Shown piece after piece: positions 12,103-37,546 of a stretch of 37,546 nucleotides of DNA; the stretch's first letter is position 1, and every line of letters begins with the position of its first letter. The notes under the pieces were generated by a model that searched no databases, was not told where the DNA came from, and worked only from the letters and a program-made list of their open reading frames with translations. The stretch is from positions 55,945 through 93,490 of the forward strand of contig CACVAZ010000117.1 in NCBI GenBank assembly GCA_902727995.1, in the 5' to 3' direction. Both the position numbers and the translations under genes were made by a program. The stretch comes from an uncultured Sulfurovum sp. (GTDB taxonomy: Bacteria; Campylobacterota; Campylobacteria; Campylobacterales; Sulfurovaceae).

Positions 12103-12190
12103 ATAATATCTTTTTGTAAATTTTAAAACAGATTCTAACCGAAAGGTTCTTATAAGTATGGTAAAATTCCAAAAAAATTAAAGGTTATAT

Positions 12191-13090: not shown

Positions 13091-13103
13091 AGAGGATTAA
13101 AAT

Positions 13104-13904
13104 ATGAAATTAATAGCTGGACCTTGTGTATTGGAGAGTCGTGACACGGTCATGAGAATTGCTGAATCATTAAATAAATATTATGAAGATTGTACTAAAG
13201 ATTTTTATTTTAAAGCCAGTTTTGACAAAGCAAATAGAACTTCACTGAATTCTTTTAGAGGGCCTGGGCTTGATGAGGGCTTGAAAATGCTTCAAGAAGT
13301 AAAAGAGCAGTTTGGTTATAAGTTATTAACTGATGTTCATGACTATACCCAACCAGCCACTGTAGCTGAAGTGGTTGATGTCTTACAAATCCCTGCTTTT
13401 CTCTGTCGTCAAACAGATTTACTGGTCGCTGCTGCGAAGACAGGTGCTGTAGTGAACATTAAAAAAGGGCAATTTTTAGCACCACAAGCCATGGAGCATT
13501 CTGTTGCAAAAGTACTTAAAACACGTGGTTTTGAGGGTAAAGTTTCATATGAAAATTCAGAAAAGTACAATGTCTGGTTAACAGAACGGGGTTCAAGTTT
13601 TGGTTATGGTAACTTGGTAGTAGACATGAGAGGCTTAAAGCAAATGCGAGAGTTTGCTCCTGTAATTTTTGATGCAACACATTCAGTTCAACAACCAGCT
13701 TCTGGTGGAGCAACCTCTGGAGGAGACTCTGCTTTAGTGCCTTATCTGTCACGTGCAGCAGCAGCCGTTGGGGTCGATGGTTTCTTTTTTGAAACACATT
13801 TTGACCCAAGTATTGCGTTGAGTGATGGGCCCAATATGATAGAATTAAAAAAATTAGATGCCTTAATGAAACAAATTGAAGCGATACAATCTATTGTTGA
13901 ATAG
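13104..13904 (+). CDS. kdsA: 3-deoxy-8-phosphooctulonate (KDO-8-P) synthase
   Basis: '[11 protein letters not shown]', '[27 protein letters not shown]', '[10 protein letters not shown]', '[20 protein letters not shown]'. Confidence 0.98.
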
Positions 13905-20248: not shown

Positions 20249-22033
20249 GTGAAAGAAGCTAAAATATTGTTTCAAAAATTAAAAATAGTTTCTCTTTTAG
20301 ATTTAGCATTGTTAATTCCTTCCTCTTATAATAATACGACACTTGCTACCCATATTGTGATGGGGGAAAGACAAACATTTGAAGCCAAAGTTGATGAGGT
20401 TAGTGCTGTTAATGGAAAATTACGGCTCTCTTTTTGGTTACCTAAATTTAAGAAACGGATCTCTTCCATGCTTTTTCGTGTTACCCCTTATCATTATCAG
20501 GTTTTTACACTGGGTTCAGAACATTATATTCAAGGGAAAGTAGAAGAATATAATGGCTCTTTACAAATGAATCAAGCAAAATCACTTAAGAGAATAGGGG
20601 AAATCATTCCTAAATATACGAGTGTTGTAAAAGCGAGTAGTATGCGTTCTTTAATCGAACACTACATAACGGAACAAAGTTTGTATGCTGAGGGCTTAAA
20701 TGACTTTGAAGTTCGGACACTTTTAGGCTTACATTATCCTAAGTATTTAGAAGAGATAGAGAATTATGACAAAGAAGTTCTAAAGTTTATAGAAGCTTTT
20801 AATCATATGAAAAAGCTAAAAGGAAAACGCGAAGACTTTCCTGCACTTGAAGCATTAAGAGGAAAACTTAGTCCTTTTGTCAATGCCTTGCCTTTTACGT
20901 TAACGAAAGAACAACAATTTGTTATTGATGAAGTACAAGAGGATTTAAAAAGAGTAGATAAGGCAACTAAGCGTTTGGTTATTGGTGATGTAGGTTCTGG
21001 TAAAACCATGGTTATTTTAGCAGCAGCTATCATAGCTTATCCGTCAAAATCCATACTTATGGCACCCACTTCATTACTGGTTATTCAACTCTATGAGGAG
21101 GCGATGAAATATTTACCAAAGAGCGTAAAGATTGCTTTAGTGATGCAAGGAAAAAATGAGGGGGATTATCTAAATGCTGATTTTATTATAGGAACACATG
21201 CCATTCTTTTTAAAGAGGACATGCCTAACGCTTCACTGGTTATGGTGGATGAGCAACACCGTTTTGGAACCAAACAAAGAGCTTTACTTGAAGCCATGAT
21301 GGCTAATAAACAGAAGAAGCCTCATTACTTACAATTTTCGGCAACACCCATACCCAGAACCCAAGCCATGATGCAGTCTGAACTCATAGATGTAAGTCTT
21401 ATTACCTCTACCCCTTTTGAAAAAGACATTAGCACTAAAGTAGTGGGAAAAGAAGACTTTCCTGTAATGCTAGAAGCAATCAAAAAGGAAATAGCAGAAG
21501 ATCATCAAGTTTTGATTGTTTATCCTTTGGTTGAAGAAAGTAAAGAGATTCCCTATCAATCACTTGACGAAGGACGAGGATTTTGGGAAAAAAAATTTGA
21601 GAATGTTTATGTAACGCATGGAAAAGATAAGAAAAAAGAAGCTGTTTTACAGGAGTTTAGAGATAAAGGAGAGATACTTTTAGCCACTACTGTAGTTGAA
21701 GTGGGTATTTCGTTACCAAGGCTTACACTTATTGTTATTGTGGGTGCAGAACGTTTAGGCTTGGCGACACTTCATCAGTTACGTGGTAGAGTGGGGCGTT
21801 TAGGATTAAAAAGTTATTGTTACTTGTTTAGCAATAATAAAAAGAATAACAGGTTACAAGCATTTACCCAAACGCAGAGTGGTTTTGAAATTGCCAAACT
21901 AGATTTGCAGTTTAGAAACTCTGGTGACATTTTAGATGGTACGATTCAAAGTGGTATGCAATTTAAATGGCTCAATTTAGCAGAGGATGAACATCTTGTC
22001 TCTGTAGCAAAAGGAAGAATAAATAACTTATGA
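20249..22033 (+). CDS. recG: ATP-dependent DNA helicase RecG (GTG start)
   Basis: 'GDVGSGKTMVI', 'VDEQHRFGTKQR', 'FSATPIPRTQAMM', 'LRGRVGRLGLKSYCYLF', N-terminal wedge/OB-like region. Confidence 0.95.
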   Translation: MKEAKILFQKLKIVSLLDLALLIPSSYNNTTLATHIVMGERQTFEAKVDEVSAVNGKLRLSFWLPKFKKRISSMLFRVTPYHYQVFTLGSEHYIQGKVEEYNGSLQMNQAKSLKRIGEIIPKYTSVVKASSMRSLIEHYITEQSLYAEGLNDFEVRTLLGLHYPKYLEEIENYDKEVLKFIEAFNHMKKLKGKREDFPALEALRGKLSPFVNALPFTLTKEQQFVIDEVQEDLKRVDKATKRLVIGDVGSGKTMVILAAAIIAYPSKSILMAPTSLLVIQLYEEAMKYLPKSVKIALVMQGKNEGDYLNADFIIGTHAILFKEDMPNASLVMVDEQHRFGTKQRALLEAMMANKQKKPHYLQFSATPIPRTQAMMQSELIDVSLITSTPFEKDISTKVVGKEDFPVMLEAIKKEIAEDHQVLIVYPLVEESKEIPYQSLDEGRGFWEKKFENVYVTHGKDKKKEAVLQEFRDKGEILLATTVVEVGISLPRLTLIVIVGAERLGLATLHQLRGRVGRLGLKSYCYLFSNNKKNNRLQAFTQTQSGFEIAKLDLQFRNSGDILDGTIQSGMQFKWLNLAEDEHLVSVAKGRINNL

Positions 22034-22383
22034 GAATTATTTGGTTTACACTAGGAGGCGTTTCACTTTTTTTAGCATTTTTAGGGGTACTTTTGCCCCT
22101 TTTACCAACAGTACCTTTTTTGCTAGTCTCTGCATTTTTTTTCGCTAAATCTTCAGAAAAGGTGCATGATTGGCTAATAAGTCATAAGTTGTTTGGAACA
22201 ATGATAAGAGATTGGCATGAAAGAGGTGCGATTGCTTTAAAGTCGAAGTATTTTGCTACGGTTTCTATTGTTTCTGTGGTATTGATTTCTCTTTTATTTG
22301 GCGTAAAATTAATGGTTATTTACCTACAGATTTTTGTTTTATCTTTAGTTTTGCTATTTATTTGGACGCGTCCTAATAATTAA
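22030..22383 (+). CDS. DUF454/YbaN-family inner membrane protein
   Basis: 'GGVSLFLAFLGVLLPLLPTVPFLLVSAFFFAKSSEKVHDWLISHKLFGTMIRDWHERGAIALKSKYFAT', diagnostic DUF454; 4-nt overlap with recG. Confidence 0.92.
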   Translation: MRIIWFTLGGVSLFLAFLGVLLPLLPTVPFLLVSAFFFAKSSEKVHDWLISHKLFGTMIRDWHERGAIALKSKYFATVSIVSVVLISLLFGVKLMVIYLQIFVLSLVLLFIWTRPNN

Positions 22384-22419: not shown

Positions 22420-22950
22420 TTAATAAAGACCAAATTTTCCATCAGCCCTTTTATACATAACTCTCATAAGACCATCATGGTCATTAAAAACGATAAATTG
22501 TCGCTTATTTTCAGCTTTTAATGCTTCAATGGCTTCTTCAAAATCGAGTGGTTTATGAAGTTCTAAATCCATAGGGACAAGTTCAATATCTTGGGCGTCA
22601 AGTTCAAGTACAGCTTCTGCTTCATCGCCTAAATCTTTAAAGGACATAACCTTGTGATCTTTAATTTTATCAGCATGTCTTCTTAATGCTTTTTGTGCTC
22701 TTGCAAAAGCATTGTCAGTGGCTGCATAAACATCTTGATCACTTTGCGTAATCACAATGGTATTTTTGTCTTTTAAGTTTAGGACAAGTTCAACTGACAC
22801 GTTTTTCTTTGTCTTACTGTCAGCTGTAATAATGGTATTCGATGAGATAATATTTAAGTTGTATTTGTCTAGACTATCAATACTTTCAGAGATATGTTCT
22901 CTAATAGAATCTGATAATTCATAATGTCTTCCCACTATATTTTTGCTCAT
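22420..22950 (-). CDS. hpf: Ribosome hibernation-promoting factor, long form (HPF/YfiA/RaiA family)
   Basis: 'GRHYELSDSIREHISESIDSLDKY...' N-terminal HPF domain plus C-terminal 'LHKPLDFEEAIEALKAENKRQFIVFNDHDGLMRVMYKRADGKFGLY'. Confidence 0.93.
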   Translation of the reverse strand: MSKNIVGRHYELSDSIREHISESIDSLDKYNLNIISSNTIITADSKTKKNVSVELVLNLKDKNTIVITQSDQDVYAATDNAFARAQKALRRHADKIKDHKVMSFKDLGDEAEAVLELDAQDIELVPMDLELHKPLDFEEAIEALKAENKRQFIVFNDHDGLMRVMYKRADGKFGLY

Positions 22951-23078: not shown

Positions 23079-23582
23079 TTAAAGCTTTTGGAGTGTTCTT
23101 CTGTGAAAAGTAACGTTTCGATTTTGAGGGTCATCAAAGTCTTTATAGCTTATGTAGGTGTCAATTATTAGAGAGATGGTATTGTAAAATCCTCCACTAT
23201 TATCACTCCATGTTGCATTTAGATTACTTATTCCCCCTGATGGATCAATGGAGGTGTTACATCCATTTAACAAGCTATTGTTTCCAATGTATTTAATATT
23301 GATTTCTACTCCATATCCAGCAGTAGTATCACCAAAATGGTCAGTAATTTTTTCGAGGCAACTATTAGTAGTATTCCTATCATAATAGAGAGCATAGAAA
23401 ATTGCTAATTCGGTGTAACTTCGTGCCAATAAAGTAGCTTGTTCTTTTTGGTATTGTGCTGTTGTGGCTTTAATGGTCTTTGCTGTAACACTCATAATCA
23501 TACTTGTAATAGAAGCCATAATAACAATCACAAAAATAGCTGTTATCATTGAAAAGGCTTTTTTATGCTTAGAATTTATCAT
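23079..23582 (-). CDS. Pseudopilin-like protein lacking Glu5 (MshP-like position)
   Basis: 'KKAFSMITAIFVIVIMASITSMIMSVTAKTIKAT' type IV pilin-like N-terminal helix with Thr at +5; ATGA overlap with the upstream pseudopilin gene. Confidence 0.82.
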   Translation of the reverse strand: MINSKHKKAFSMITAIFVIVIMASITSMIMSVTAKTIKATTAQYQKEQATLLARSYTELAIFYALYYDRNTTNSCLEKITDHFGDTTAGYGVEINIKYIGNNSLLNGCNTSIDPSGGISNLNATWSDNSGGFYNTISLIIDTYISYKDFDDPQNRNVTFHRRTLQKL

Positions 23583-24517
23583 CGTATAATCGCTTTCTCT
23601 TTGCAGGTACTAATATTGTATTTTTGACCAATGTTTTCAGAAGCACAGAGTTTGAACTGAATAACTCCACCATTTTCGGTAAATTTGAAGACAGAAATAT
23701 TGGTAGCCATGCGTTTTTTAATTCCACTGGTATAACGTTCGCCATTCCATGGTTGGTAGTTATAGTAGAGATAAAGATTATAAAGTCCATCACCTACAGG
23801 GTCTTCATCTATGGGAACTAAAGCATAAGCACTCCATGCTAGTTTATAGCGTTCACTAATGATGATAGGTTTATTGTCTACAAAGGTAAGGTTGGTGTCC
23901 TCATTGTTTGTCACCCGAAAGATACAAGCAGTTTTACTAGGATCAATAAGCCCCATACAAGAAGGGTTATATTCGGTATCCTCAATATAGTAGTTTGTTT
24001 TTTGGGAGAAAAGTATGGCAGCAGCGTGACTATTGTCACTCATTGTAACTTTTCCATTGGAGAGATTGTTCATAATATTCGCTGTCTTACTCAATTGTGA
24101 AGCAGGTGTTGTGACGCTAAAACGATTGGCTGTACTGTAATCGGTAACACCTGACCATCCTGGTGTCTCCGAGGCAGAAAAACTGTCATTGTCATATCCT
24201 ATCCATTCAATGGTTGTAAAGTTATTATCATATTTTGGAATGTTTTTAAGCATAATCCAATCCGTATCTTCGACAAAACCTGTTTTACTAGAATCTTTGG
24301 CAACACTTGTTCCTTGGATGCGATAGGTTAGACGGTTAACAATTTGATTGGAGACCAGTTCTGTTTTGGTTGTGACCTTATACATAGCACGTTGTGTAAT
24401 AAGATTTTCATAGACTTGAACAATAATGGAAGAGCTAATAGAGGCAACAACCCCTAAAATTACTAAGACAAAAACAACTTCAATTAGACTAAATGCAGGG
24501 TGGCTTTTTTTTATCAT
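23579..24517 (-). CDS. Type II/IV pseudopilin (prepilin-type N-terminus, MshO-like size)
   Basis: 'HPAFSLIEVVFVLVILGVVASISSSIIVQVYE' class III signal with Glu5; ATGA overlaps at both ends. Confidence 0.87.
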   Translation of the reverse strand: MIKKSHPAFSLIEVVFVLVILGVVASISSSIIVQVYENLITQRAMYKVTTKTELVSNQIVNRLTYRIQGTSVAKDSSKTGFVEDTDWIMLKNIPKYDNNFTTIEWIGYDNDSFSASETPGWSGVTDYSTANRFSVTTPASQLSKTANIMNNLSNGKVTMSDNSHAAAILFSQKTNYYIEDTEYNPSCMGLIDPSKTACIFRVTNNEDTNLTFVDNKPIIISERYKLAWSAYALVPIDEDPVGDGLYNLYLYYNYQPWNGERYTSGIKKRMATNISVFKFTENGGVIQFKLCASENIGQKYNISTCKEKAIIR

Positions 24518-25281
24518 AACTCTATTTCTCCTTGTGGTTCGAAGGTTCCAATATTACAAGAAAAGGCTTCTAGACTAATGTTCTTGTCAAGTTCTTTAAC
24601 GCCACTCTTGGAAGTTAGAGCTACTTTGATGTGTTTAATATTACTAGGAACACTACTTGTCAGTGCTAATTGTCCTCCAATGTTTGTCTGTACCGAAAGA
24701 ACAGAATTCACAGGAGCATCTTTTCGGTAGGAAACCTTGGTATGCATATTGAGTCCAATATCCACATAATCCCCAATGTCTGCTGTACTATCTTGATTGT
24801 TGTAAACAGTAATACCTAAATTACTATTGGCATAATCATCGACATCATCAAAGTGAGTGAAATCAGACTCATTCATGTCACTATTTGTGCTATTGAGGTC
24901 AGGACCAAAGCTAGGTGAGGGGGTATAAACTTGACTTCCTCCTACAAGTGAAATTCTTCCTGATACCCCTTTGAGTCCTGCAATGCTTCCAGCATTAAAA
25001 TTAAAAGGTGTTATCGTTTGCTGGGTGTCCAAAATGGGAGATGTTCCAATGGCAAGATTGGCATTGGCTTCATCCCAATTCATAGATAAAATGACTCCTG
25101 TCTGTGCAGCAGCAGCAGCAATGGCTTCTTGTTGGAGGGCAACATTACTACTACGAATTGATTGTTGAATTAGCATGGGACTTGAAAGTAATACAATTCC
25201 AATAATCACCAAAGCAAAGATAAGTTCTATCATTGCAATGGCAGGTTTAGATTTTTTTATACTGATGCTTTCTTTGCTCAT
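24514..25281 (-). CDS. Type II/IV pseudopilin (prepilin-type N-terminus)
   Basis: 'KPAIAMIELIFALVIIGIVLLSSPMLIQQSI' class III signal with Glu5. ATG at 25281 preferred over the TTG at 25293. Confidence 0.86.
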   Translation of the reverse strand: MSKESISIKKSKPAIAMIELIFALVIIGIVLLSSPMLIQQSIRSSNVALQQEAIAAAAAQTGVILSMNWDEANANLAIGTSPILDTQQTITPFNFNAGSIAGLKGVSGRISLVGGSQVYTPSPSFGPDLNSTNSDMNESDFTHFDDVDDYANSNLGITVYNNQDSTADIGDYVDIGLNMHTKVSYRKDAPVNSVLSVQTNIGGQLALTSSVPSNIKHIKVALTSKSGVKELDKNISLEAFSCNIGTFEPQGEIEL

Positions 25282-25286
25282 TTTCT

Positions 25287-28200
25287 TTACCAATCCATTT
25301 TACCATTAGCATCAATTTTTTTAGTAATTTCAGCCTGATTTCCCTCAACTCCAATTCCTGTTAAAGCTGAAATATCTTTAATTGCTAGTCTGAAGAAAGG
25401 AATACCTGCACTGTTGTCTGTGTTCTTGTGGTAGCGTAACCATGGTTGCGTATTTATCTCTATTTCAGTTTTAGTTAATGTTTCAGGAACACTTTTACTG
25501 TATTTGACATAGATATTATTAATTCTTCCATTTAAAAATGAAGGAATAATTGCTGGTTCGATTTGAAAATCACTATTACTACTGATTAAACTGCTAACAT
25601 TACTATCTAGCTTACTATTATGTTCACGATCAACGTACCAGCCTAAATCAGTTTTTTGTGTATTAAATCCAATGTTTTTAAGGTTCATATCATTGTCACA
25701 CCAAGATCTATTTTTAGAAATTTTACAATAAATCTCTACCATCAGTGGGGTATGAATTATTTTTTTAGTGGTTTCAGGATAAACTTCTTTATCGGAGCGA
25801 ATACGTGCGTAGAAAAAAGTCCTTGTTTGGTCAATGATACCTGAGTTCTTTTTGTGCAAAGCTTCTTGCTCTTTGCCTTCTCTCATTGACTTACTTGCCG
25901 TTGAATTGGCATCAAAGGCAACAAAATTAACTTGTATTGGATTCGTGGCTTCATTATAATGTTTTTCCATATTATAAGAGACTTTTAAACTTGTATTTCC
26001 CTCATTTTCATCTAAAAAATCATTGGCTTTAATGTGAATATTTTTAAAATAACTTACATCTCCATTAAGTCCATTAAGTTTGACAATCTGTTGAGGATAA
26101 ACAGGCGTTCCGTTGGAGGTTTTAATCTCTACTTTTCCTTGTTCATCACTATAGTTTTCTTTAAAAGTAGGTATAAAATTTAAAGAAAGTTCAACATCGT
26201 TAGCAAGACAGCTTTTGCTAAAGTTAGTTAGCTTTTGTCCATTCTTATCTTCAGCAATAATCGTACTGCTAATTTCTACAGCCATTTCATCGCTATCATT
26301 AAGATTATTGGTGTAGAGGTAAGCTCGTCCATCTTTGTTGGAGTTATTGAACGTCATGTTTGTTAGATTAAAGGCATAGGGTTGAAAATGTATTTTTAAA
26401 TCCTTATAACTATCTCCTTCATTCGATGCAATATTACACCCTACTTTTCCACTACTATTGGGAATATTACTAGCACTGTTTAAGACACAGCCTATATTAT
26501 TTAGGTTTTTGTTAATATCTGTCCAGTTAACATCTTCGATGTGCAGGGTATATTGTCCAACATTGGTATGTGTGAAAGTTGCATTGATTTTGGAATCTTT
26601 AAAATTGTATTCTTTAGGGTAGTTCTTTTCATCAGCACATTGCATTGTGCTATTTTTATTAAAAATAAGGGTGCTGTTGAGTTCTTTAGCATTATCTGTT
26701 TCATAATTTTCAATAAGGTTAGTCGTTCCATAGGGTGTTGCTTTGGTGAAAAGAGTGTAATTATACCCCGTGCTTAAATTAAGATAGTCATTCTCCAAGT
26801 AACTGCTATCACGATAAAGAGTATTGTTAAATTCATTACTCTCTTTGATGCTTACATGAAAATGAGCTGGACGTATGGCAAAACTATGTGAGTAATTACT
26901 CGACTCATTTGTGGTTAGTGCTTTTATGGCGTAATCATTTGAATTGGTATAGCTACCATAAACTAAAGTTCCATTTTCATCAACAAGATAAGAAACACGG
27001 TAGTTTGCCAATCGAGTTGCTCTATCAATCTTAATATCTTGCAGGACATCATAACGGTTACTACTGCTATCTCCTAGATGAACATATTTTGTATAGAGAA
27101 TATCATTCGTTAGCGTAGTATTTCTATCTAAGAGTTCCACTTTAAGAGTTATATTCTTAACCATTTGAGGATCATCATTTTTGTCATATCCTACTAAACT
27201 GTAGTCAAAAGCACGACCTGATATTTGAGTGTAAAGATTTTCTTTAAGCGACTGTGGATTGTTTTCAACGTCCTTGCTATTAGTCCGTTCTACAGCAAAA
27301 CGAAGTGTATCATCCCCTTCAATAGTTGCCATCATCACTGTATCATCAAGTAAAAGATTAAATGCATTTGAAAGCATCACATAGAATGTTTCACTCCCCT
27401 CTTTTAGTGTATCTCCTTTGACATAAATGGTAATGGTTTGTTCTTGTGTTCCTGCTGGAAAAACAACTGTGCCACTACTTGGAATATAATCACTATCACT
27501 CATTGCTGTTCCATTACTTGTGGCATATTGAACTGATCTATTTGTTAATCCAACCTCACTTAGTCGTAAAGTAAAGGTAAAGGCTTTTGTCCCACTGTCT
27601 CCCTCGGTATGGCTAATGTCCTTAAGTAAAATAGTAGGAAAATTATGAAGGGTTTTCATGCTATAATCTTCGACTTCTCCATCAAGTGCTGAACCTGTTG
27701 CATTTAACTCTTGTTGTGAACTGTATCTGAAACGTGCATAAATATTTTCACCATTAAAATTAAGCTTAGCCACATCAGAAGCGTTCACTTGAAGGTAAAT
27801 GCTTCCACTAGAACCATCAACATCTTTAGCAATCTGTTCTGAGACGGTAAATTGACCATCTCTATTCCAATCAATCCATGCATTAAGATAGCCAGAACCT
27901 TTTGTTTCTATGTTGATGTTGTTCAAAGAATTGAGCGAAGTAATTTGATAGCCTTGCAGTGACACAGTTCCTATTTTTACGCCATCATCTTGTTCATCTA
28001 AATTAGCATTTACTGATGGTTTTCCATTATTTTCATTGCTTACTCCATTCCCTAAGTAAATTGTAGGGTTACCATAGCTAGGCAAGGAGTGTCTAGCACC
28101 ATTGCTTTCTAGTTTGGTTGGATAATTTTCAGGTAAATCTCCAAAATCAAATTTAAACTCTGCATCCGTACACATTGCTCCATCATTAAGACTTACTTTG

Positions 28201-31200
28201 GTACTTTCTGCAAACCATACAGCTTCTGCTGAATTGGCTACATCGATTCGATAAATATTACCACTCTTGTTGTCATAGATATAATAAAATCCACTAGCAT
28301 CAAAAAAACTTGCACCAAAACCTCTATTGCCTACTAAAGAGGTGTCTTGTTTTGATAGTTCTTGACCTGTTAATGGATCTATTTTATAGAGGTACTTCGT
28401 ACCATTTCCATTATTGACAGCATAAAGTTTATTGTCTTTAGGGTTAAATCCCCAATCAGCAGTAGTTAAATTAAAACTTAATTCAAATTCTCTAATTTTT
28501 GTAAGATAAGTTAATGATTTTGGATCAAGATCTATAACCACAACCCTTTGACCATTACCATTAACCTTTAGATAAAGATGACCATTATTATCTACATCAC
28601 CAACATAGGAATCAAATCCATCAAGTCCTGATATAAGAAAGTCTTCAGTTATCCAGTCTCCTTGCTTATCCATACCAATTCGTGAAATCGTACCATTTTG
28701 TGTTGTATGGTTATATCCCCAAAAATAACCATCTTTTTTGTTAAACCCTAAGGCATTGATATTATCATCAGATACATTATTTTTAATCGAGGTCATTTCT
28801 CCATTTGCAAGATTTAGAGCATTGATATCAGTTGGTTTATTTTGAAACATAAAGGCTGTTTGTAAACAACCAATGGGATTGCTCTCTTCATTGTCATCAT
28901 TTATAATGGTAGCTAGAGCAGTCACGGATTCAGGAGTAAAAATAGCATTGCTAATATTGGTTAATTCGAGCGTAAAAGTTTCATTGTCTTCAACTTGAGT
29001 ATCTCCCTTGATTAGCACTGAAATACTTGTACCATTAGCATCTTTAGGAATGATAATACTCTCTCCTTGGGCGATTGAATCTTCTTGATAGTCTTCTCCT
29101 AGCATGGCTGTATTATCACTCAATTTGTAGCTAAAGCTAATCTCTTTGGGGGCTGGTCTATTGAGTACAATGTTAAAGAACATCTGTGTTGTACTTGTAT
29201 CTCCTTCTACTATAGAAGGATTCGATGCAATACTGATTGAAGCATTTTCAATGGCTATTTGTGTACCATTACAAGAAAGCCCTTCGATGTCTCCGTCTGC
29301 ATTGGTAATGGCAGATGGAACCAATACACCTGTTTGAAGATTTACTTTATAAAGTCTTTTTCCATCAAGGTCATCTCGTCCTTCATCTTCTACATAAAGA
29401 TTACCATCACTAGCAAAAGCCAAACCTTCAGCATCAGCTAAATTTTGTAATCGAGTTACAAAAGTTGTCAATCCTGTTTTTAGGTCAATACTATAAAGTG
29501 GTGGTTTGAGATTAGAATAATCATAGTCATCAATAGCATAACCTAAACCTGTAAGAGGATCAATTGCCAAACTTGATAAGTCAACATTGGTATTTTTAGG
29601 ATAACCATCAAGTACCGTCCAATTGTCAGGGTCAAATGCATATAGTTTAGAGTCATATTCACCACTAATAATGTAGAGTATTTCTTTGTTTAAAACAGGG
29701 TCAAAGTAAAATTCAGCCCCATCCACAGCTCCTGAAATAATGTTGTTTTTAACTTTTTCAGTAGCACCACTGTTTACATTTATTGTGTATAAATCACTTG
29801 GTCCAGAATCATCACTATTTCCTTGAAAAGCATAAAAAGTATGATTACTCGCTCTATAAGCTGAACCCTCACCATTAAACTGTTTGTCGATATTAACAAC
29901 AGAGGCAAAAGGCAAAGGATCTCCATTGGGAATCATAGAGACTTTATAGAGTTTTTTATTATTATCAGTTAGTGCATAACAAGTGGCTGATGAAGTTTCG
30001 CTTGATGGGTCTGAACAGTCATTAAACTCTACATGAAGGTAGGGTGCTTTTGATGAAGAACCATCATAAGAATCAGCAACACGTTTTCCATTTCCTGAGA
30101 TAATAAATGCCATGGCATTACCATTATTCCATCCGTCTTTATTGACTATTTCTTGAACAATACTCTTTAAATCACTTGTTCTCTGTTCAGAATCTTGTTT
30201 GTTTTTATTCATCCATGCTTCAGGTGACCAAGATACAAAGGCTGTTGTTTTATTTCTATTGCTTATATTATAAGCCGTAGAAATAAATTGAGATGCATGG
30301 TTCGTACTTTCTCCATAAATGGTTAAGTTGGTAGAGTCTGAATCTTTTTCTTCTGAGGTAAATTGGATGTAGGCATTGGTAATACTCGCTCCTTTTGGAA
30401 TAGAGAGATTTTGAAAACGAAGTCCTATTATTTGTTGGTGATCCTCTTGTGTCATCTCTAGGTCACTGCTTCCAATGTTCATGTTCCCATTACTTACTCG
30501 CTCTTCAGCATCGTCATCATCATCAGATATTTTTACTTCAATTGATGAGGGATTTTCGGTACATGCCAGTTCACTAATTATTTCATCATCATTCATAATA
30601 GTGGCTATGGCAGTTACTGATTCAGGAGTAAAAGTAGCATTGTCTATGTTGCTTAATTTTAGGGTAAAAGTTTCATTGTCTTCAACTTTAGTATCTCCTT
30701 TTATTAGTACAGAAATACTGGTAGAGTCAGCATTTTTAGGAATGCTAATGGTTTGCCCTTGTGCGATTGAACCTTCTTGATAGTCTTCCCCAAATATCGC
30801 AGAATTATTACTTAAGGTGTACTCGAAGGTAATTTTTTTTGGAGCTGGTTTATTTAGTATTATATTAAATAACATTTCTTTTAGACCACTGTCTCCTTCT
30901 GTTATAGAAGGATTTGATTCAATGCTAAGGGAAGGGTTGTCAATAAGTTCAATGGATGTGGTGATTTTAAAGTTGGATTCAACAGTTTGTCTTTCTGCCC
31001 AAAACATATCAAAATTATAGGTATTTCCAATGACTAAATCTAAGTTGTCTAAGTTAACAGACTTTTCTTCTTTACCATGAATTCCTCCAATATCAACAGC
31101 CAATTTATTATTAATAAACACCCAAACATCATCATCCCCAGAAAAGGTAAATATTTCGCCACCTTGATAGGTAAATTGAGAGTGTATTTCATAGGTCATA

Positions 31201-31643
31201 TGATAATTATGTTCTTGTCCCTCATTGCCAAAAAGCTGATTATCTAAGGGAAAAAAACCTTCATAGTTCACGTTTGAAGTTTCGCCCATAGGATTAGTCT
31301 CACTGTCATAAACATACACATTGTTTTGTTTTTCTAAGGTAATGGTATAAGGCATTGATTGATTAACTCCTGAAACATCATTGTACCATTGATTAAAAGT
31401 ATTGTGAGTTGTTGAGTTTTTTGTAGAATTATTAAAAACAGGATTTCTATTTTCATCAAGTTGATCTTGTACCATTCCGTAGTCTAATCCAGCAAAATTC
31501 CAATTATTAAATTCTGCATAAAGTTCAAAATCGGGGTGAGAACTTTTAAAGTCTCTTAGAGTACCCGATAAGGTAATGCTTTGAGAATAAAGGGTCAAAG
31601 TACTAAAAGAAAGTAAAAAAATTAATTTAAAAATATTTTTCAA
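25287..31643 (-). CDS. Giant secreted protein (2118 aa): fibro-slime/PA14-like head, two similar Calx-beta repeats, propeller-like segments, GEVED, further Calx-beta, MshQ/DUF6701-like C-terminal region
   Basis: Signal peptide MKNIFKLIFLLSFSTLTLYSQS; 'FTFSGDDDVWVFINNKLAVDIGGIHG' (fibro-slime); Calx-beta 'EGDSG...GEDYQEGS...GDTKVEDNETFTLKLSN...IMNDDE'; GEVED 'GYLNAWIDWNRDGQF...ARFRYS...DGEVEDYSM'; 'HSFAIRPAHFHV'; C-terminus '...ALTGIGVEGN...NGKMDW'. Confidence 0.92.
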   Translation of the reverse strand: MKNIFKLIFLLSFSTLTLYSQSITLSGTLRDFKSSHPDFELYAEFNNWNFAGLDYGMVQDQLDENRNPVFNNSTKNSTTHNTFNQWYNDVSGVNQSMPYTITLEKQNNVYVYDSETNPMGETSNVNYEGFFPLDNQLFGNEGQEHNYHMTYEIHSQFTYQGGEIFTFSGDDDVWVFINNKLAVDIGGIHGKEEKSVNLDNLDLVIGNTYNFDMFWAERQTVESNFKITTSIELIDNPSLSIESNPSITEGDSGLKEMLFNIILNKPAPKKITFEYTLSNNSAIFGEDYQEGSIAQGQTISIPKNADSTSISVLIKGDTKVEDNETFTLKLSNIDNATFTPESVTAIATIMNDDEIISELACTENPSSIEVKISDDDDDAEERVSNGNMNIGSSDLEMTQEDHQQIIGLRFQNLSIPKGASITNAYIQFTSEEKDSDSTNLTIYGESTNHASQFISTAYNISNRNKTTAFVSWSPEAWMNKNKQDSEQRTSDLKSIVQEIVNKDGWNNGNAMAFIISGNGKRVADSYDGSSSKAPYLHVEFNDCSDPSSETSSATCYALTDNNKKLYKVSMIPNGDPLPFASVVNIDKQFNGEGSAYRASNHTFYAFQGNSDDSGPSDLYTINVNSGATEKVKNNIISGAVDGAEFYFDPVLNKEILYIISGEYDSKLYAFDPDNWTVLDGYPKNTNVDLSSLAIDPLTGLGYAIDDYDYSNLKPPLYSIDLKTGLTTFVTRLQNLADAEGLAFASDGNLYVEDEGRDDLDGKRLYKVNLQTGVLVPSAITNADGDIEGLSCNGTQIAIENASISIASNPSIVEGDTSTTQMFFNIVLNRPAPKEISFSYKLSDNTAMLGEDYQEDSIAQGESIIIPKDANGTSISVLIKGDTQVEDNETFTLELTNISNAIFTPESVTALATIINDDNEESNPIGCLQTAFMFQNKPTDINALNLANGEMTSIKNNVSDDNINALGFNKKDGYFWGYNHTTQNGTISRIGMDKQGDWITEDFLISGLDGFDSYVGDVDNNGHLYLKVNGNGQRVVVIDLDPKSLTYLTKIREFELSFNLTTADWGFNPKDNKLYAVNNGNGTKYLYKIDPLTGQELSKQDTSLVGNRGFGASFFDASGFYYIYDNKSGNIYRIDVANSAEAVWFAESTKVSLNDGAMCTDAEFKFDFGDLPENYPTKLESNGARHSLPSYGNPTIYLGNGVSNENNGKPSVNANLDEQDDGVKIGTVSLQGYQITSLNSLNNINIETKGSGYLNAWIDWNRDGQFTVSEQIAKDVDGSSGSIYLQVNASDVAKLNFNGENIYARFRYSSQQELNATGSALDGEVEDYSMKTLHNFPTILLKDISHTEGDSGTKAFTFTLRLSEVGLTNRSVQYATSNGTAMSDSDYIPSSGTVVFPAGTQEQTITIYVKGDTLKEGSETFYVMLSNAFNLLLDDTVMMATIEGDDTLRFAVERTNSKDVENNPQSLKENLYTQISGRAFDYSLVGYDKNDDPQMVKNITLKVELLDRNTTLTNDILYTKYVHLGDSSSNRYDVLQDIKIDRATRLANYRVSYLVDENGTLVYGSYTNSNDYAIKALTTNESSNYSHSFAIRPAHFHVSIKESNEFNNTLYRDSSYLENDYLNLSTGYNYTLFTKATPYGTTNLIENYETDNAKELNSTLIFNKNSTMQCADEKNYPKEYNFKDSKINATFTHTNVGQYTLHIEDVNWTDINKNLNNIGCVLNSASNIPNSSGKVGCNIASNEGDSYKDLKIHFQPYAFNLTNMTFNNSNKDGRAYLYTNNLNDSDEMAVEISSTIIAEDKNGQKLTNFSKSCLANDVELSLNFIPTFKENYSDEQGKVEIKTSNGTPVYPQQIVKLNGLNGDVSYFKNIHIKANDFLDENEGNTSLKVSYNMEKHYNEATNPIQVNFVAFDANSTASKSMREGKEQEALHKKNSGIIDQTRTFFYARIRSDKEVYPETTKKIIHTPLMVEIYCKISKNRSWCDNDMNLKNIGFNTQKTDLGWYVDREHNSKLDSNVSSLISSNSDFQIEPAIIPSFLNGRINNIYVKYSKSVPETLTKTEIEINTQPWLRYHKNTDNSAGIPFFRLAIKDISALTGIGVEGNQAEITKKIDANGKMDW
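28886..29253 (-). repeat. Second copy of a highly similar Calx-beta module in the 2118-aa protein
   Basis: 'ASISIASNPSIVEGDTS...RPAPKEISFSYKLSDNTAMLGEDYQEDSIAQGESIIIPKDANGTSISVLIKGDTQVEDNETFTLELTNISNAIFTPESVTALATIINDD' closely matches the copy at about 30580-30940. Confidence 0.85.
30580..30940 (-). repeat. First copy of the highly similar Calx-beta module in the 2118-aa protein
   Basis: 'PSLSIESNPSITEGDSG...KPAPKKITFEYTLSNNSAIFGEDYQEGSIAQGQTISIPKNADSTSISVLIKGDTKVEDNETFTLKLSNIDNATFTPESVTAIATIMNDD'. Confidence 0.85.
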
Positions 31644-31710
31644 AATTAAATCCTTTTTATAATTTTATTTTAATAAAAGTATAATAGGCTTTTACTTCTT
31701 TTTAGGTTAA

Positions 31711-31735
31711 AATTTATATATTAAATATATAAATT
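31711..31735. repeat. Perfect 25-nt AT-only palindrome between two giant genes
   Basis: AATTTATATATT-A-AATATATAAATT, 12-bp perfect arms; 29 nt downstream of the 1816-aa gene stop and upstream of the 2118-aa gene. Confidence 0.8.
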
Positions 31736-31755
31736 AATAATAATTTAAGTTTATT

Positions 31756-31781
31756 AATCCATTTTACCAATCCATTTTACC
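31756..31781 (-). repeat. Perfect tandem duplication of 13 bp across the stop codon of the 1816-aa giant gene
   Basis: aatccattttacc x2 (minus strand GGTAAAATGGATT GGTAAAATGGATT): the sequence encoding the terminal GKMDW is repeated beyond the TAA. Confidence 0.9.
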
Positions 31782-34700
31782 TACGGAATGCACTCCTGCT
31801 TTGGACTTGATGATGTTACCTGACTCTCCAATTCCTGTCCATTGGGAATCATCTTGATTGGTACAATTTACTACATAGTAAGGAGGCATCCCTTGTGGAT
31901 GATAATCGAGTACAGGATCGGTTCCAATGCTTATTTTAGTACTAGGAATAGTACAATTGTTAAAACTAGTAAGAACTACACCATTGCGTCCTGAGCTAAA
32001 TTTAACAGGAATGGGGGAAATGTTGACAACATTTGGATTGGGAGTGAGGGAAGTGACTTCTCCATCACTACTTTGGTCATGGTTGACCGAAAGATACCAC
32101 CCTTGTTGTTTTCTTGGACTACTTTCTATGACCGTATTATTTAAAATGCCTGTCTCTTGACAATAGGCTTTTGGGGCATTACAAAAGATATCGACATTCA
32201 AAGGGGTGCGAACTACTTTAGACTTTTTGAAGTAAATACGTGGATAATTTAATAGGTCAGAAGCCACTTGAGTAAAATAAAAATTACGTTCAATGCCATT
32301 GAAGTTTTTCTCTCCTTTAGGAACATGCTGCGTACTCTTATTGGTTTCACTGTAGGCTGTATCGGATTTCACATGAATGTTGTCAAACTTAATGTTGATG
32401 GGATTAATGGGCTGGGTTAAATGTTTTTGAATGTTGTAGCGTAAATCTAACTCGACCGAACCATTTTTTCCATCAAGAAATTTATCTGCTGTGATGTTTA
32501 ATTCATCAGTTACGTAGGCAAGAGTGTTGTAGTTTGAAAGATTATAGTCTTCATTGTTAAAACGTTCCATACGTATGATATTGACCTCTTCACGGCTATG
32601 GTTCCCTTCTATTGGAGCTGTTAAAATGGTTTTAGGAGCAGTAATGAGACCATCTTCACTTTTAAGACTTGCCAAAGGGGTGAGTAAAAGATCTTTTGCC
32701 ATACACGAATGGCTAAAGTTACTGGTACTAACATTATTTTTTCCTTGTGCCACAATCTCTCCTTTGAACTGCATTCCTGTCTGGTAATAGTTTTGGTTTA
32801 AAGGACTCATGTAAATAAAATCAGGATGGCTATTGTTGGGTAAATTATGTTGTGCTAAATCGACTTTAAATTGAAAAGGATAAAACGTTAAATCAATTCC
32901 ATGTTGCTTGACAGCAATGTTACAGCCTGAACGCTGGTTTGAATGGAGTGTTGCAGAAGTACTTTTTCCTAATTCACAATCACCTTTTACTCGGTCTACT
33001 TCTGCCCAGTCTTCATCCTCTGTTAAGGTTACATGGTATTTCCCAACATTATCATGCATAAAAGTTGAGCTATTAAATACACCATTAGCAAAAGTAATGT
33101 TTTGATTAATTCCTGTGGTATTAGCACAATGTGTTAATCCTGTATTGTTAAAATCAAAAGTTTCTGAAAAACTTTTATTGTAATCAAGAGCAGAATCATA
33201 GCTAAGATATTTGGTTGCAACCATAGAAAGATTATAATCATAACCTGCTGCTACTCTTAGATTGTGATTGGGATATTCGCTGGAAATTTTTTCACTGTTT
33301 CCATCAGAAATTTTGATAAAAAAACGTTCAGGACGAATGGAAAAATCATCTTTAGCATCATTGTAGGCTATGTTTGTAAAAGCATTAAAACAGGTTTTAG
33401 GTGCTGTGTTACAGTCTGCTTGAAGAATTCCTCCTTGCTCATCGAGCCCATAAGTAATGCGAAAGCGTACGTCTTTATGAGCAGGGAGCATTGCTAAATC
33501 GTCTATGGCTACATTGACCCCTGATAGGGCATTAATACGGCTAAGAGCAGGATTGTTTTTAATGTGATAATAGTTACGGTAAAGTACTTTTTGGTTTACG
33601 TCATCAAGTAATTCTACTTTGATGGTCACGTTGTCTAAAGCTTTTTCTTGGGTCATGTTTTCATCATAAAAAAGTACAGAATAATCAAAATCACGACCAA
33701 CTATTTGTGTGTACCAAGCATTTCTAGCCTCTGAGTTAATAATAGGATTGAGTCCTGAGTTGGTTCTTTCTATGTTAAAAGTACCGAGTAGTGGTTTAAA
33801 ACTTGAACCAAAGTAAATCGCATAATCTTCAACTTCTCCATCACTTGCTGATTCTGTAGCATTTAATGTGGCTGTGGATGAATATCTAAAACGCAGATAA
33901 GTTTTTGTATCTTCGATTAGTCCATCGTTAACATTAACACTAAGTGTATGTGTTCCTGTTGTTAATGCTAGTCCTGTAAAGATTTTTTCACCAATATCAT
34001 CAAAGTCTCCATCTATGTTGTAATCAATCCAAGCATTTAAATAACCAGCTTTTGAGACTTTTATTTTTAAGTCATGACTTGTATTTAAATCTAAAAATGC
34101 TCCATTTAAATTTGATCCATTTGCTAAATTTACCCCATCGTCATCATCTGTACCATTTAGATCATCTCCTGTTGCGTCTACATTGTGGTAGCTATGAATA
34201 TCATGGTCAACTTCGGTTCCCATGAAAATACCATTGTCAATATTATGTCTAGGTGTTCCATAACTTATGGGTGCATCACCACGGTCTGTAAATACCAGTG
34301 AAGCTGTGAGACAATTTGTTCCATCATTAAAGTCTGCTTCTTGGGAAGCAGATAAAAAAAACTTTTCGCCTGTGTTCAGATTAAATTCAAAGAATCCATT
34401 TCCCAAACTGTCATTGGCAAAAAATCGTCCATTAGCATCTGAAAAAGTTGAATCGAATTGGTAGCCTGTATGAGGAGAACCAAGGCTAGAGACAATACCT
34501 GTTGCTACATCAATTTTAACCAATGCTCCTCCATCAATAATCCCATGTAGGTATTTACCATCAGGTGTAAATGAGAAGTCCAATAACGAAATGGCTTTGT
34601 CTAAGGTAATTTCACTAACGCTTTTATCGGATAAATTGATTTTGAAAATTTTCTCATAGTCTTGTCCTGGTCCAGAGATATAATATTCATTGGCATAAAT

Positions 34701-37214
34701 AGCCCCTGCAAAAAGTTGCTTTGTCGTTAAAATGCTTGGTAGTTCAGAAATGTTTCCCAAACTAATCACTTTTCCTGTTTTACTAATTTTTACCAACTCT
34801 TTTTTATAGAGTCCAAAAATATAGTTACTGATATTAGTATCCCCCGAATCGGCATAAGCTAAGGCATTATACATTTTATTGCTACCCTCTGAATCAAGTA
34901 CGATAAAATCAAAAGGGTTCTTGGTGGTGTCAACTTTATGAAGCCACATTTTATTGGTAGAAGTAGGATTATCTCTATTAACAGAACTCGATATATACAT
35001 GCTATCATCACAAATAAAAGGAGCATCTTCACCCTCACAACCACAATCTCTTAGTGTTCCATCAATATTTTTATTAGAAATGGTATTTTGATATAAATTT
35101 GTTACTTGATTATCACCCATTTGACCTTGAAAAATATAAAATTCATCATAATAACCTGATAGCGTAGACATGGTTATGTCATCTGTAATATTCTCTATGC
35201 CTCCTGTGTAAGGATTACTTCCTTTTAGTTCACCATTGATGTAGAGTTTCATACCTTGACCTCCAAAAGTAAAGGTGACATGAACCCATTGGGTGTCACT
35301 GTCTCCTCCATCACTATTAGTAAAAAAGACTTCATTGGTATGAATGGTATTGCCATTAAGATGCACATCAATGCTTCCCTTATGCAAGTCACCTCCTACA
35401 CGAATGGCTTCAATGTCAAACAAGCCTTTTTTGAAAAGCCATGAATCACTTGCCCAAATGTTATGATGGTCGTAAAGTAACATGGACACCGTACCTTCTG
35501 TTAAGGCATAGTCTGCATGATGAGGTATTTTTAAGCCTGAGGATTGATAGCCGTTAAGCGAAGTACACATGTAATCTTTATCATCATCGGTCATAATTCC
35601 AGTAGCCGTACCAAGTGCATGGTTTACTGTGGGAGAATTGTCTATTTTCCACTCTTCATTACCACAGTCATCAAATCTGAACTCTCCGATGTTTTTTATA
35701 GAAAGAGGCGCTAAGTCATCATTTAAAATAATGATTGGAACCGTATTGCTACCATCAATACTTATGTTGACTTCATTATGAATTTTAAAATAGAAAGATT
35801 CATGGGATTCTAGTTGAGTATCTCCCTTAATACTAATTGGAATGCTAAGCGTAGTTTCTCCTCCTGTAAAAATATGTTTATCTAAGAGAGTTTCATAATC
35901 ATTATTGCTAGATTCAGCTGAACCGTCAAAGGTATAAAATTCAATAGAGGAGTTCGGTAATGCAGGTTTATCAAGGCTTAAAGTGATGTTCAATTCACGC
36001 TGTGTGCTGTTACCCTCATAAATTTCATAGGAAGGCATGTCAATTTTGATGCTAGGAAGTGAACCATCATCATTTATAATGCTTATTTGTATTTGCTCAT
36101 TTAGTCCACCCCAATTTAGTTTATAAAGATTCCAAAAACCAATATGAAAAACTTCATCATTTTCCATTTTTGTGTCCCCATTAATAGGAACTTTTATCGT
36201 AAAATATGTTTCTCCACCTGTGAAGTTGACATCATTTTGTGTATAAATATAGTCATTATCCCCCCATTGGTTTTCTGCTGTTTCATTCCATGTCCCATAA
36301 GTAAAAGAAGAATCTACTAACGCTGGGTTATCTAAAATAATATTGGCTTCTAAAAATGTTTGACTACTATTTCCTTCTACAATAGAAAGTGCACTATGTT
36401 CAAAAGAGATAACAGGAAAATCACCATCATCATCCCAAATTCGTAGCTCACTTTCACTATTATCAATATCAGGACTTCCTGAAATTACCAATTTTAACGC
36501 TTCATTATGTTCTATTTCTAGGTCTCCTATAATAGGAATTTGAATAATTTTTTCTTCATCTCCTGTTATAAACAGAACATTTCCTGCAATAGGTGTATAG
36601 TCAACATTAGGAGTAGCTGTATAATATGAAGCCTCTGCCGTTTCATAATCAATAGAAATATTTGGTTCACCCACAGGCAATGGTTTATCTAAAAATATTC
36701 TACAAGATATATTATTATTATCACCAATATTTCCTTCATTAGTACTCTCACAACTAACATTGACAGTAACAGACTTATCCACATCATCGTCAATAATTGT
36801 TCCCAAAGCTTTTCCTGTACCTGTCACAGAATAGCCACTCGTTGGGGTAGTAATTTGCAGATAAAAGTACTCATTGCTTTCATGAATGGCATCATCTAAA
36901 ATATCAATGGTTACAGTTTTAGAAGTAGAAGGGGACAGAGAAGTAAACCAAATAGCTGTGAATACATTACTACTTTTAGCTGTGTAGTCCGTACCTGAGA
37001 TAGCTGAACCATTTATGGTTTGATAATCAATGTGAACGGGAGAAAAGATTGAAAGGGGAAGTTCATCAACCGTAACGGTGAAGCTTATGGTTCCTTCACT
37101 CTCATTAACAGAAGCATTGGAAACCTGTACTCCTACGTTGACACCATCAGCAAAAAGCAAAGCAGAGAAGAATAAAGAGAATGAAAAAAAAACTTTTTTA
37201 TAAAAAGAAGCCAT
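31764..37214 (-). CDS. Giant secreted protein (1816 aa): four N-terminal Calx-beta-like repeats, LamG-like domain, propeller-like segment, GEVED, MshQ/DUF6701-like C-terminal region
   Basis: Signal peptide MASFYKKVFFSFSLFFSALLFADG; Calx-beta repeats ending in IIDDD/IWDDDG/IINDDG/ILNDD; LamG-like 'QWVHVTFTFGGQGMKLYINGELKGSNPYTGG'; GEVED 'GYLNAWIDYNIDGDF...LRFRYS...SDGEVEDYAI'; 'DFSIRPERFFIKI'; C-terminus 'WTGIGESGNIIKSKAGVHSVGKMDW'. Confidence 0.92.
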   Translation of the reverse strand: MASFYKKVFFSFSLFFSALLFADGVNVGVQVSNASVNESEGTISFTVTVDELPLSIFSPVHIDYQTINGSAISGTDYTAKSSNVFTAIWFTSLSPSTSKTVTIDILDDAIHESNEYFYLQITTPTSGYSVTGTGKALGTIIDDDVDKSVTVNVSCESTNEGNIGDNNNISCRIFLDKPLPVGEPNISIDYETAEASYYTATPNVDYTPIAGNVLFITGDEEKIIQIPIIGDLEIEHNEALKLVISGSPDIDNSESELRIWDDDGDFPVISFEHSALSIVEGNSSQTFLEANIILDNPALVDSSFTYGTWNETAENQWGDNDYIYTQNDVNFTGGETYFTIKVPINGDTKMENDEVFHIGFWNLYKLNWGGLNEQIQISIINDDGSLPSIKIDMPSYEIYEGNSTQRELNITLSLDKPALPNSSIEFYTFDGSAESSNNDYETLLDKHIFTGGETTLSIPISIKGDTQLESHESFYFKIHNEVNISIDGSNTVPIIILNDDLAPLSIKNIGEFRFDDCGNEEWKIDNSPTVNHALGTATGIMTDDDKDYMCTSLNGYQSSGLKIPHHADYALTEGTVSMLLYDHHNIWASDSWLFKKGLFDIEAIRVGGDLHKGSIDVHLNGNTIHTNEVFFTNSDGGDSDTQWVHVTFTFGGQGMKLYINGELKGSNPYTGGIENITDDITMSTLSGYYDEFYIFQGQMGDNQVTNLYQNTISNKNIDGTLRDCGCEGEDAPFICDDSMYISSSVNRDNPTSTNKMWLHKVDTTKNPFDFIVLDSEGSNKMYNALAYADSGDTNISNYIFGLYKKELVKISKTGKVISLGNISELPSILTTKQLFAGAIYANEYYISGPGQDYEKIFKINLSDKSVSEITLDKAISLLDFSFTPDGKYLHGIIDGGALVKIDVATGIVSSLGSPHTGYQFDSTFSDANGRFFANDSLGNGFFEFNLNTGEKFFLSASQEADFNDGTNCLTASLVFTDRGDAPISYGTPRHNIDNGIFMGTEVDHDIHSYHNVDATGDDLNGTDDDDGVNLANGSNLNGAFLDLNTSHDLKIKVSKAGYLNAWIDYNIDGDFDDIGEKIFTGLALTTGTHTLSVNVNDGLIEDTKTYLRFRYSSTATLNATESASDGEVEDYAIYFGSSFKPLLGTFNIERTNSGLNPIINSEARNAWYTQIVGRDFDYSVLFYDENMTQEKALDNVTIKVELLDDVNQKVLYRNYYHIKNNPALSRINALSGVNVAIDDLAMLPAHKDVRFRITYGLDEQGGILQADCNTAPKTCFNAFTNIAYNDAKDDFSIRPERFFIKISDGNSEKISSEYPNHNLRVAAGYDYNLSMVATKYLSYDSALDYNKSFSETFDFNNTGLTHCANTTGINQNITFANGVFNSSTFMHDNVGKYHVTLTEDEDWAEVDRVKGDCELGKSTSATLHSNQRSGCNIAVKQHGIDLTFYPFQFKVDLAQHNLPNNSHPDFIYMSPLNQNYYQTGMQFKGEIVAQGKNNVSTSNFSHSCMAKDLLLTPLASLKSEDGLITAPKTILTAPIEGNHSREEVNIIRMERFNNEDYNLSNYNTLAYVTDELNITADKFLDGKNGSVELDLRYNIQKHLTQPINPINIKFDNIHVKSDTAYSETNKSTQHVPKGEKNFNGIERNFYFTQVASDLLNYPRIYFKKSKVVRTPLNVDIFCNAPKAYCQETGILNNTVIESSPRKQQGWYLSVNHDQSSDGEVTSLTPNPNVVNISPIPVKFSSGRNGVVLTSFNNCTIPSTKISIGTDPVLDYHPQGMPPYYVVNCTNQDDSQWTGIGESGNIIKSKAGVHSVGKMDW

Positions 37215-37280
37215 GGCAATTCCTTTAAGAAATATTATATGACTGGATTATAGTATATTTATAATTTCTTAAAGATTAAT

Positions 37281-37301
37281 TTATATTTTATATTTTATAT
37301 T
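37281..37301. repeat. Heptanucleotide tandem repeat (TTATATT)x3 upstream of the 1816-aa giant gene
   Basis: Three exact consecutive copies of TTATATT, 67-87 nt upstream of the start codon. Confidence 0.8.
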
Positions 37302-37336
37302 TATTTAATTATACTTTTCTCTTATAAAAAATCATT

Positions 37337-37546
37337 TTACCACTCAAGCTTACCACTTGATTTTGTATTTGATTTCATTTTAAGAATGTTTCCTGTGTTT
37401 CCTACTCCTGTCCAAGTAGAACTGTCTTTGATAGTACCTGAGATTATGTAGTGGGGTACTCCATTCGGTACTCCAGCTTTGGAGATTCCTGAATAGTAAC
37501 GTAGTTGAGGGTCAGTATAAATATCAACTCTAGCATCTAAATCATT
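37337..37546 (-). CDS. C-terminus of a third giant/paralogous surface protein (truncated by window end)
   Basis: Open frame on the minus strand from the window edge: NDLDARVDIYTDPQLRYYSGISKAGVPNGVPHYIISGTIKDSSTWTGVGNTGNILKMKSNTKSSGKLEW*, homologous to the last ~60 aa of the two neighbouring giants. Not in the supplied ORF list. Confidence 0.85.
   Translation of the reverse strand, partial: NDLDARVDIYTDPQLRYYSGISKAGVPNGVPHYIISGTIKDSSTWTGVGNTGNILKMKSNTKSSGKLEW

Follow-up and report, generated by a model that had tools for sequence, protein, structure and literature searches.

The structural parts of the mannose-sensitive hemagglutinin (MSHA) pilus of Vibrio cholerae are encoded by mshB to mshQ (PMC4624765). 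Loss of MshQ, a putative MSHA adhesin, lowers the amount of MSHA at the cell surface (PMC7096442), and the protein has been listed as an MSHA component whose function is called unknown (PMC9815625). In type IVa pili, PilY1 and the minor pilin PilX are predicted to join by strand complementation, and in M. xanthus every PilY1 has its own minor-pilin cluster (PMC13190605). Here we describe a stretch of 37,546 nucleotides from an uncultured vent bacterium, Sulfurovum sp. (contig CACVAZ010000117.1, positions 55,945 to 93,490; hereafter the window), which encodes giant proteins in tandem, A, B, and a truncated third, C, next to three minor-pilin-like genes. By profile comparison, the C-terminal tails of the giants are a highly diverged form of the DUF6701 (PF20419) domain, which we take to be the C-terminal part of MshQ and the domain annotated for that protein of the MSHA pilus. 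Because the giants share an operon with a single minor-pilin set, we consider it likely that A, B, and the third giant are alternative tip proteins (adhesin or priming) of one MSHA-like type IV pilus.

The window ends where its contig (C117) ends, within a metagenome-assembled genome (MAG) of 2.4 Mb in 222 contigs that is 85% complete. Read along the minus strand, it begins with the final 69 codons of giant C, followed by giants B and A, three small genes of 255-259, 312, and 167 amino acids (aa), and, after a gap of 128 bp, a ribosome hibernation factor gene. The features are as follows.

37337..37546, minus strand: giant C, last 69 residues and stop codon, truncated where the contig stops; the tail terminus, ...GKLEW, is B-type
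31764..37214, minus strand: giant B, 1816 aa, with a Sec-type signal peptide at the N-terminus, judged by eye
35709..37142, minus strand: head of B, four Calx-beta domains
35079..35696, minus strand: head of B, LamG/ConA-like domain (Laminin_G_3)
34290..34988, minus strand: DUF6923 repeat block of B, propeller-like, common to A
33795..34289, minus strand: GEVED region of B
31767..33782, minus strand: tail of B, 672 aa, diverged DUF6701/MshQ-like module by profile comparison
25287..31643, minus strand: giant A, 2118 aa
30945..31643, minus strand: head of A, signal peptide and fibro-slime/PA14 domain
28881..30935, minus strand: head of A, Calx-beta, a domain of ~190 aa (DNRLRE-like by eye), a propeller-like domain of ~240 aa, Calx-beta
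28149..28856, minus strand: DUF6923 block of A
27648..28151, minus strand: GEVED region of A
27303..27638, minus strand: Calx-beta of A between GEVED and tail, absent from B and typical in A-clade relatives
25290..27302, minus strand: tail of A, 671 aa, DUF6701/MshQ-like module, ending ...GKMDW
24514..25293, minus strand: minor-pilin-like gene 1, E5 present; its listed TTG start lies inside the last codons of giant A
23579..24517, minus strand: minor-pilin-like gene 2, 312 aa, with Pfam N_methyl in 25/25 homologues
23079..23582, minus strand: minor-pilin-like gene 3, 167 aa, PilX/MshP/GspK-like, with Thr and not Glu at position 5

An earlier, sequence-only reading of the window had proposed that A and B share a C-terminal and GEVED segment under different heads. 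The shared tail is confirmed. Indeed, blastp aligns A1449-2118 with B1146-1816 (27% over 710 columns, E 4e-58) up to the last residue of both, and the DUF6923-GEVED segments separately (A1027-1339 with B846-1143; 30%, E 1e-25); the motifs quoted in that reading fall within these two alignments. The heads do differ by Pfam and NCBIfam: A has fibro-slime/PA14, three Calx-beta, DUF6923, and GEVED domains, and B has four Calx-beta, LamG, DUF6923, and GEVED. The truncated third protein also carries the same terminus, as proposed, since its 69-aa remnant is similar to the last residues of both B (41%, E 5e-14) and A (31%, E 2e-8), with the identities placing it in the B type. The tail similarity is specific and does not reduce to generic Calx-beta/GEVED likeness: the A-B tail alignment scores 609 versus 13 for a shuffled tail, a Pfam scan of 60 tails detects no Calx-beta or GEVED in them, and aligning the tail with the B-head profile gives a probability of 0.1, which is noise. 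As for a common chassis, there is a shared block, and it starts upstream of the tail at DUF6923; it is not fully colinear, as A alone has a Calx-beta domain (aa 1336-1447) between GEVED and tail.

When the tails were scanned singly, DUF6701 was their top Pfam family, matching 3 of 60 with a best E of 1.2e-10; the PF20419 cut-off was reached in Pfam neither by full-length A or B nor by the B tail. A family search of the Sulfurovum genome with PF20419 likewise gave no match, in a search where no control genome gave signal either. Profiles are more decisive. Using hhalign, we compared a 60-sequence tail profile with a DUF6701 profile made from 14 Campylobacterota matches, one of them below cut-off, and obtained a probability of 100 and an E of 5.8e-63 over 571 columns, extending to the final residue. 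Column-shuffled or reversed controls gave E 0.2-0.8. Since the match is at probability 100 and the controls are at noise level, we classify the window tails, on profile evidence, as highly diverged members of the DUF6701 superfamily. This assignment of the tail to a diverged DUF6701 (MshQ C-terminus) domain is what is new here. A literature search for DUF6701 and for Sulfurovum pilus adhesins returned nothing relevant, a plasmid search with one DUF6701 protein found no MshQ-like tails, and a search of PDB sequences with the tail profile gave noise only.

The tail is widespread. Of 249 genomes from the phylum, 10 (~4%) encode proteins above the DUF6701 cut-off, and tail profile matches are present in 139 of 200 Campylobacterales genomes (49 of 71 genera; ~70% of genomes). 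Iterating the profile yielded 70 long matches, from the window and from loci of relatives, that reach the C-terminus wherever the gene end is present; in all 69 complete members the last residue is Trp and position -4 is Lys or Arg ([K/R]-x-x-W). With the clade alignment as query, the nearest named records with the tail are from Sulfurovum and other Campylobacterota MAGs; a contig scan with one single tail as query found no match, whereas the clade alignment did. Other Campylobacterales families have tail homologues too, within open reading frames 4,039-4,079 aa long (G221, G208, G456), which are candidates for even larger tip proteins.

An AlphaFold2 model of the B tail (21 sequences) is all-beta, with a mean pLDDT of 83 and a pTM of 0.71. 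The last 27 residues (646-672) have a pLDDT of about 40 and are not folded in this isolated model. Of the 7 invariant columns in 60 tails, 3 lie within these 27 residues (p 0.002). Because it is conserved yet does not fold alone, the modeled terminus suggests folding on a partner, for which the predicted strand complementation between PilX and PilY1 is the nearest precedent (PMC13190605). In Foldseek, the best PDB match of the B tail is the immunoglobulin (Ig)-like stack of PrgB, an adhesin, followed by macroglobulin-domain stacks (complement C3). These are generic Ig or macroglobulin stacks and point to no specific relative.

Giant A opens a tight operon with the three minor-pilin-like genes. 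The arrangement recurs at 39 loci: downstream of the giant, in the same orientation, come genes of ~250, ~310, and ~165 aa, in most cases spaced or overlapping by only a few nucleotides, and the same three neighbors follow some DUF6701-positive giants (L133, L139, L144). Pfam N_methyl is found in 13 of 25 gene 1 homologues, besides all those of gene 2. The N-terminus of gene 3 is prepilin-type by motif only, with Thr replacing Glu5, as is typical for the PilX/GspK class. The apparent -7 overlap of giant A and gene 1 was considered as a conserved translational coupling and rejected: the TTG merely falls within ...D-W (GATTGG), and the likely start is the ATG at 25281 (255 aa), 5 nt past the stop of giant A.

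Pilus machinery of the MSHA type is encoded elsewhere in the same genome. Contig C57 carries a secretin that matches TIGR02519 (MshL) at 262.3 bits (cut-off 250.2), together with a PilO-like protein, an MshM-like AAA ATPase, a tetratricopeptide repeat-like protein, and an MshEN-T2SSE ATPase, which fits the order mshL-M-N-E. Two PilT-family ATPases are encoded on C94 and C13.

Beyond the pilin cassette, the window contains a gene for long-form hibernation-promoting factor (HPF/YfiA; 22420-22950, minus strand), and a gene of the same size (176-182 aa) holds this position in 24 of the loci used, so that synteny appears conserved. Convergent with the cassette are a RecG-like helicase and a DUF454 protein (20249-22383, plus strand). 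At other loci (L043, L044, L052, L075, L085, L088, L096, L133, L139), giants of this family repeatedly have as neighbors two genes of ~805-811 and ~216-220 aa, the larger of which is Lon protease-like, judged by its C-terminus.

Giants outnumber pilin sets. Among 34 genomes of the genus, pilin 2 was found in 26 and is single copy in 24 of these; of the two exceptions, one looks split over contigs and the other is in a MAG with 6% contamination. Two or three distinct tail termini are present in at least 15 of the genomes in which pilin 2 is single copy (G000, G008, G018, G027, G036, G044, G063, G075, G085, G095, G097, G103, G105, G115, and G119). Moreover, across 24 loci and with HPF as the one control gene, tail distances track those of the three pilins after HPF correction (partial r 0.29, 0.48, and 0.44, all p<=0.001); with the same correction, the relation of head distances to the three pilins is weak or none (partial r 0.15, -0.03, and 0.18). 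From these 24 loci we infer that tail and pilins may be co-adapted.

We therefore have several giants for one pilin set, and the following sequence of events would fit. Each giant would be exported to the periplasm, where its C-terminal DUF6701/MshQ-type tail would dock on the three co-transcribed minor pilins, assembled as a complex; a sheet in the 167-aa PilX/MshP-like pilin is probably completed by the conserved peptide at the end of the tail (GxG..G...[K/R]xxW). The complex of minor pilins and giant would then prime pilus assembly and be carried through the MshL secretin at the pilus tip. There the Calx-beta, fibro-slime, LamG, and propeller modules would be displayed as a Ca2+-dependent, presumably adhesive, binding head. 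Different heads would compete for one base, since there are more giants than pilin sets, and duplication, head exchange, and tail gene conversion would renew the repertoire. The sequence-only reading had spoken of an assembly/anchoring module. A discrete C-terminal assembly module under variable heads stands; for the anchoring part, docking on type IV pilus minor pilins, an option absent from that reading, is the better interpretation.

Several points weigh against alternative tips on one pilus. The link to MshQ runs through the Pfam DUF6701 model, below which A and B themselves fall. Gene 3 matches no Pfam family; its AlphaFold2 model, from two sequences, shows a long N-terminal helix and three strands, is poor (pLDDT 63), and has no pilin match in the PDB. 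Strand docking rests on low confidence in an isolated model and on analogy with PilY1. The co-divergence, from 24 loci and one control gene, cannot be freed of all shared ancestry, and the counts of giants derive from fragmented MAGs. Finally, the genome has a second, GspD-type secretin (G000 contig C174, L154:199-2454), separate from the MshL-type one, by which the giants might leave.

This last point leads to an alternative that we regard as unlikely, namely that the type II-like/MSHA secretin or a separate GspD system exports the giants as cargo, which become secreted or outer-surface adhesins with the tail as export signal. Pseudopilin-like genes are also part of type II secretion, and the [K/R]xxW present at every C-terminus might serve in sorting, just as the second secretin could be the exit. 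However, the fixed partners of the giants are minor-pilin-like genes alone, with no gsp genes nearby, the tail co-diverges with the pilins, and it is homologous by profile to a domain annotated for MshQ of the MSHA pilus.

The heads and tails of the giants have partly separate histories. In a tree of 67 tails, B groups with 18 and A with 20 sequences from the same genus (support 100 for the B clade and 87 for the A clade); most other genera have one copy, and the two lineages separate at the base of the genus. The DUF6923-GEVED tree gives the same split with L065_5 as sole exception. Judged with small home-made profiles, B-type domains are present in 16 of the 19 B-clade members in which the head is present. 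B-clade heads vary little, having Calx-beta repeats, in some cases LamG, and then DUF6923-GEVED (exceptions L055_4, L042_0, and L062_3), and A-clade heads are a mosaic of the same modules. Because tail and DUF6923-GEVED split alike and B-clade domains are mostly B-type, head replacement is not supported as the origin of the A/B pair of the window, which is an old duplication that diverged long ago.

The agreement of the two trees and the uniformity of the B-clade heads would also suit a history with no head exchange at all, in which A and B are ordinary old paralogues shaped by vertical domain gain and loss, their tails alike from common descent only. As a general account we find this rather improbable, in view of three cases among relatives. 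L065_5 has a B-type DUF6923-GEVED module on an A-clade tail; its branch is long, but its head matches B at 365 bits. The tandem B-type genes L055_3 and L055_4 share a tract of 2,107 bp at 96% identity (L055:7467-9570 and 11728-13830), preceded by unrelated DNA and heads. The tract begins 5 codons ahead of the tail and extends about 35 bp beyond the stop codon; its middle ~1.1 kb is 100% identical, and its edges are 79-98% identical. It is probably the trace of a recent gene conversion confined to the module, with an assembly artefact as the alternative (MAG contig coverage 4.6x). Third, the head of L055_4, on a B tail, is the fibro-slime head of window A (47%). Head exchange is thus real but occasional, and in relatives it crosses the A/B divide. 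Diversification by head replacement, as proposed in the sequence-only reading, holds for related genomes and is not supported as the origin of the window pair. Nor is the tail constant in sequence. Across 13 B orthologues, DUF6923-GEVED has a median identity of 59% and the tail one of 45%, with DUF6923-GEVED ahead in 74 of 78 pairs. Of the two, the adjoining head module is the better conserved, and what is constant about the tail is its position and its partners.

That the giants are outer-membrane-anchored fibrillar adhesins, with the tail as surface anchor and the pilin genes as incidental operon partners, would suit their Calx-beta, LamG, and GEVED modules, common in surface adhesins, and an Ig-like tail whose best fold match is PrgB, but is highly improbable given pilin neighbors conserved across genera and Pfam scans that show no lipobox, type IX secretion system, RTX, or autotransporter domain.

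Compared with MshQ, alternative tip proteins of this kind would have much in common. The C-terminal domain is homologous by profile-profile comparison, the N-terminal modules are variable, the neighboring genes are minor-pilin genes, and the genome has MshL/MshE-type machinery. In contrast to MshQ, A and B are too diverged for the Pfam model, the heads are much longer, the giants come first in the operon and not last, there are two or three giants per pilin set, and the gene cluster lies apart from the mshL-E cluster. The likeness to PilY1/PilC of type IVa pili would be one of plan: a conserved C-terminal part that docks PilX minor pilins, variable N-terminal binding domains, and several paralogues (PMC13190605). 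It differs in that the tail here is an Ig-like stack without the PF05567 propeller at the C-terminus; Pfam finds no PF05567 in the tails, and a search of the genome, run without positive control, found none. Moreover, a single pilin set seems to serve all the paralogues here, in contrast to the separate set of each PilY1 in M. xanthus. With generic Calx-beta/GEVED/LamG surface proteins the giants share common types of head module, and their tail, a separate homologous family, is not built from such modules.

Taken together, these features may, we tentatively propose, make up a tip-cassette system, with one minor-pilin base and several giant MshQ-like proteins per cell. Tails would co-adapt with the pilins and be homogenized by gene conversion, and heads would be exchanged between paralogues, giving alternative adhesive tips on one pilus type; the tail would be a pan-Campylobacterales tip module largely missed by current domain models. 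A DUF6701 domain as the fixed docking part of tandem giants would supply a concrete hypothesis for MshQ, that of a PilY1-like role at the tip and in priming. Exchangeable heads beside one minor-pilin set would form a natural series of head/tail chimeras for testing that role. The candidate tip module would also extend to ~70% of sampled Campylobacterales genomes, versus PF20419 in ~4% of the sampled genomes of the phylum.

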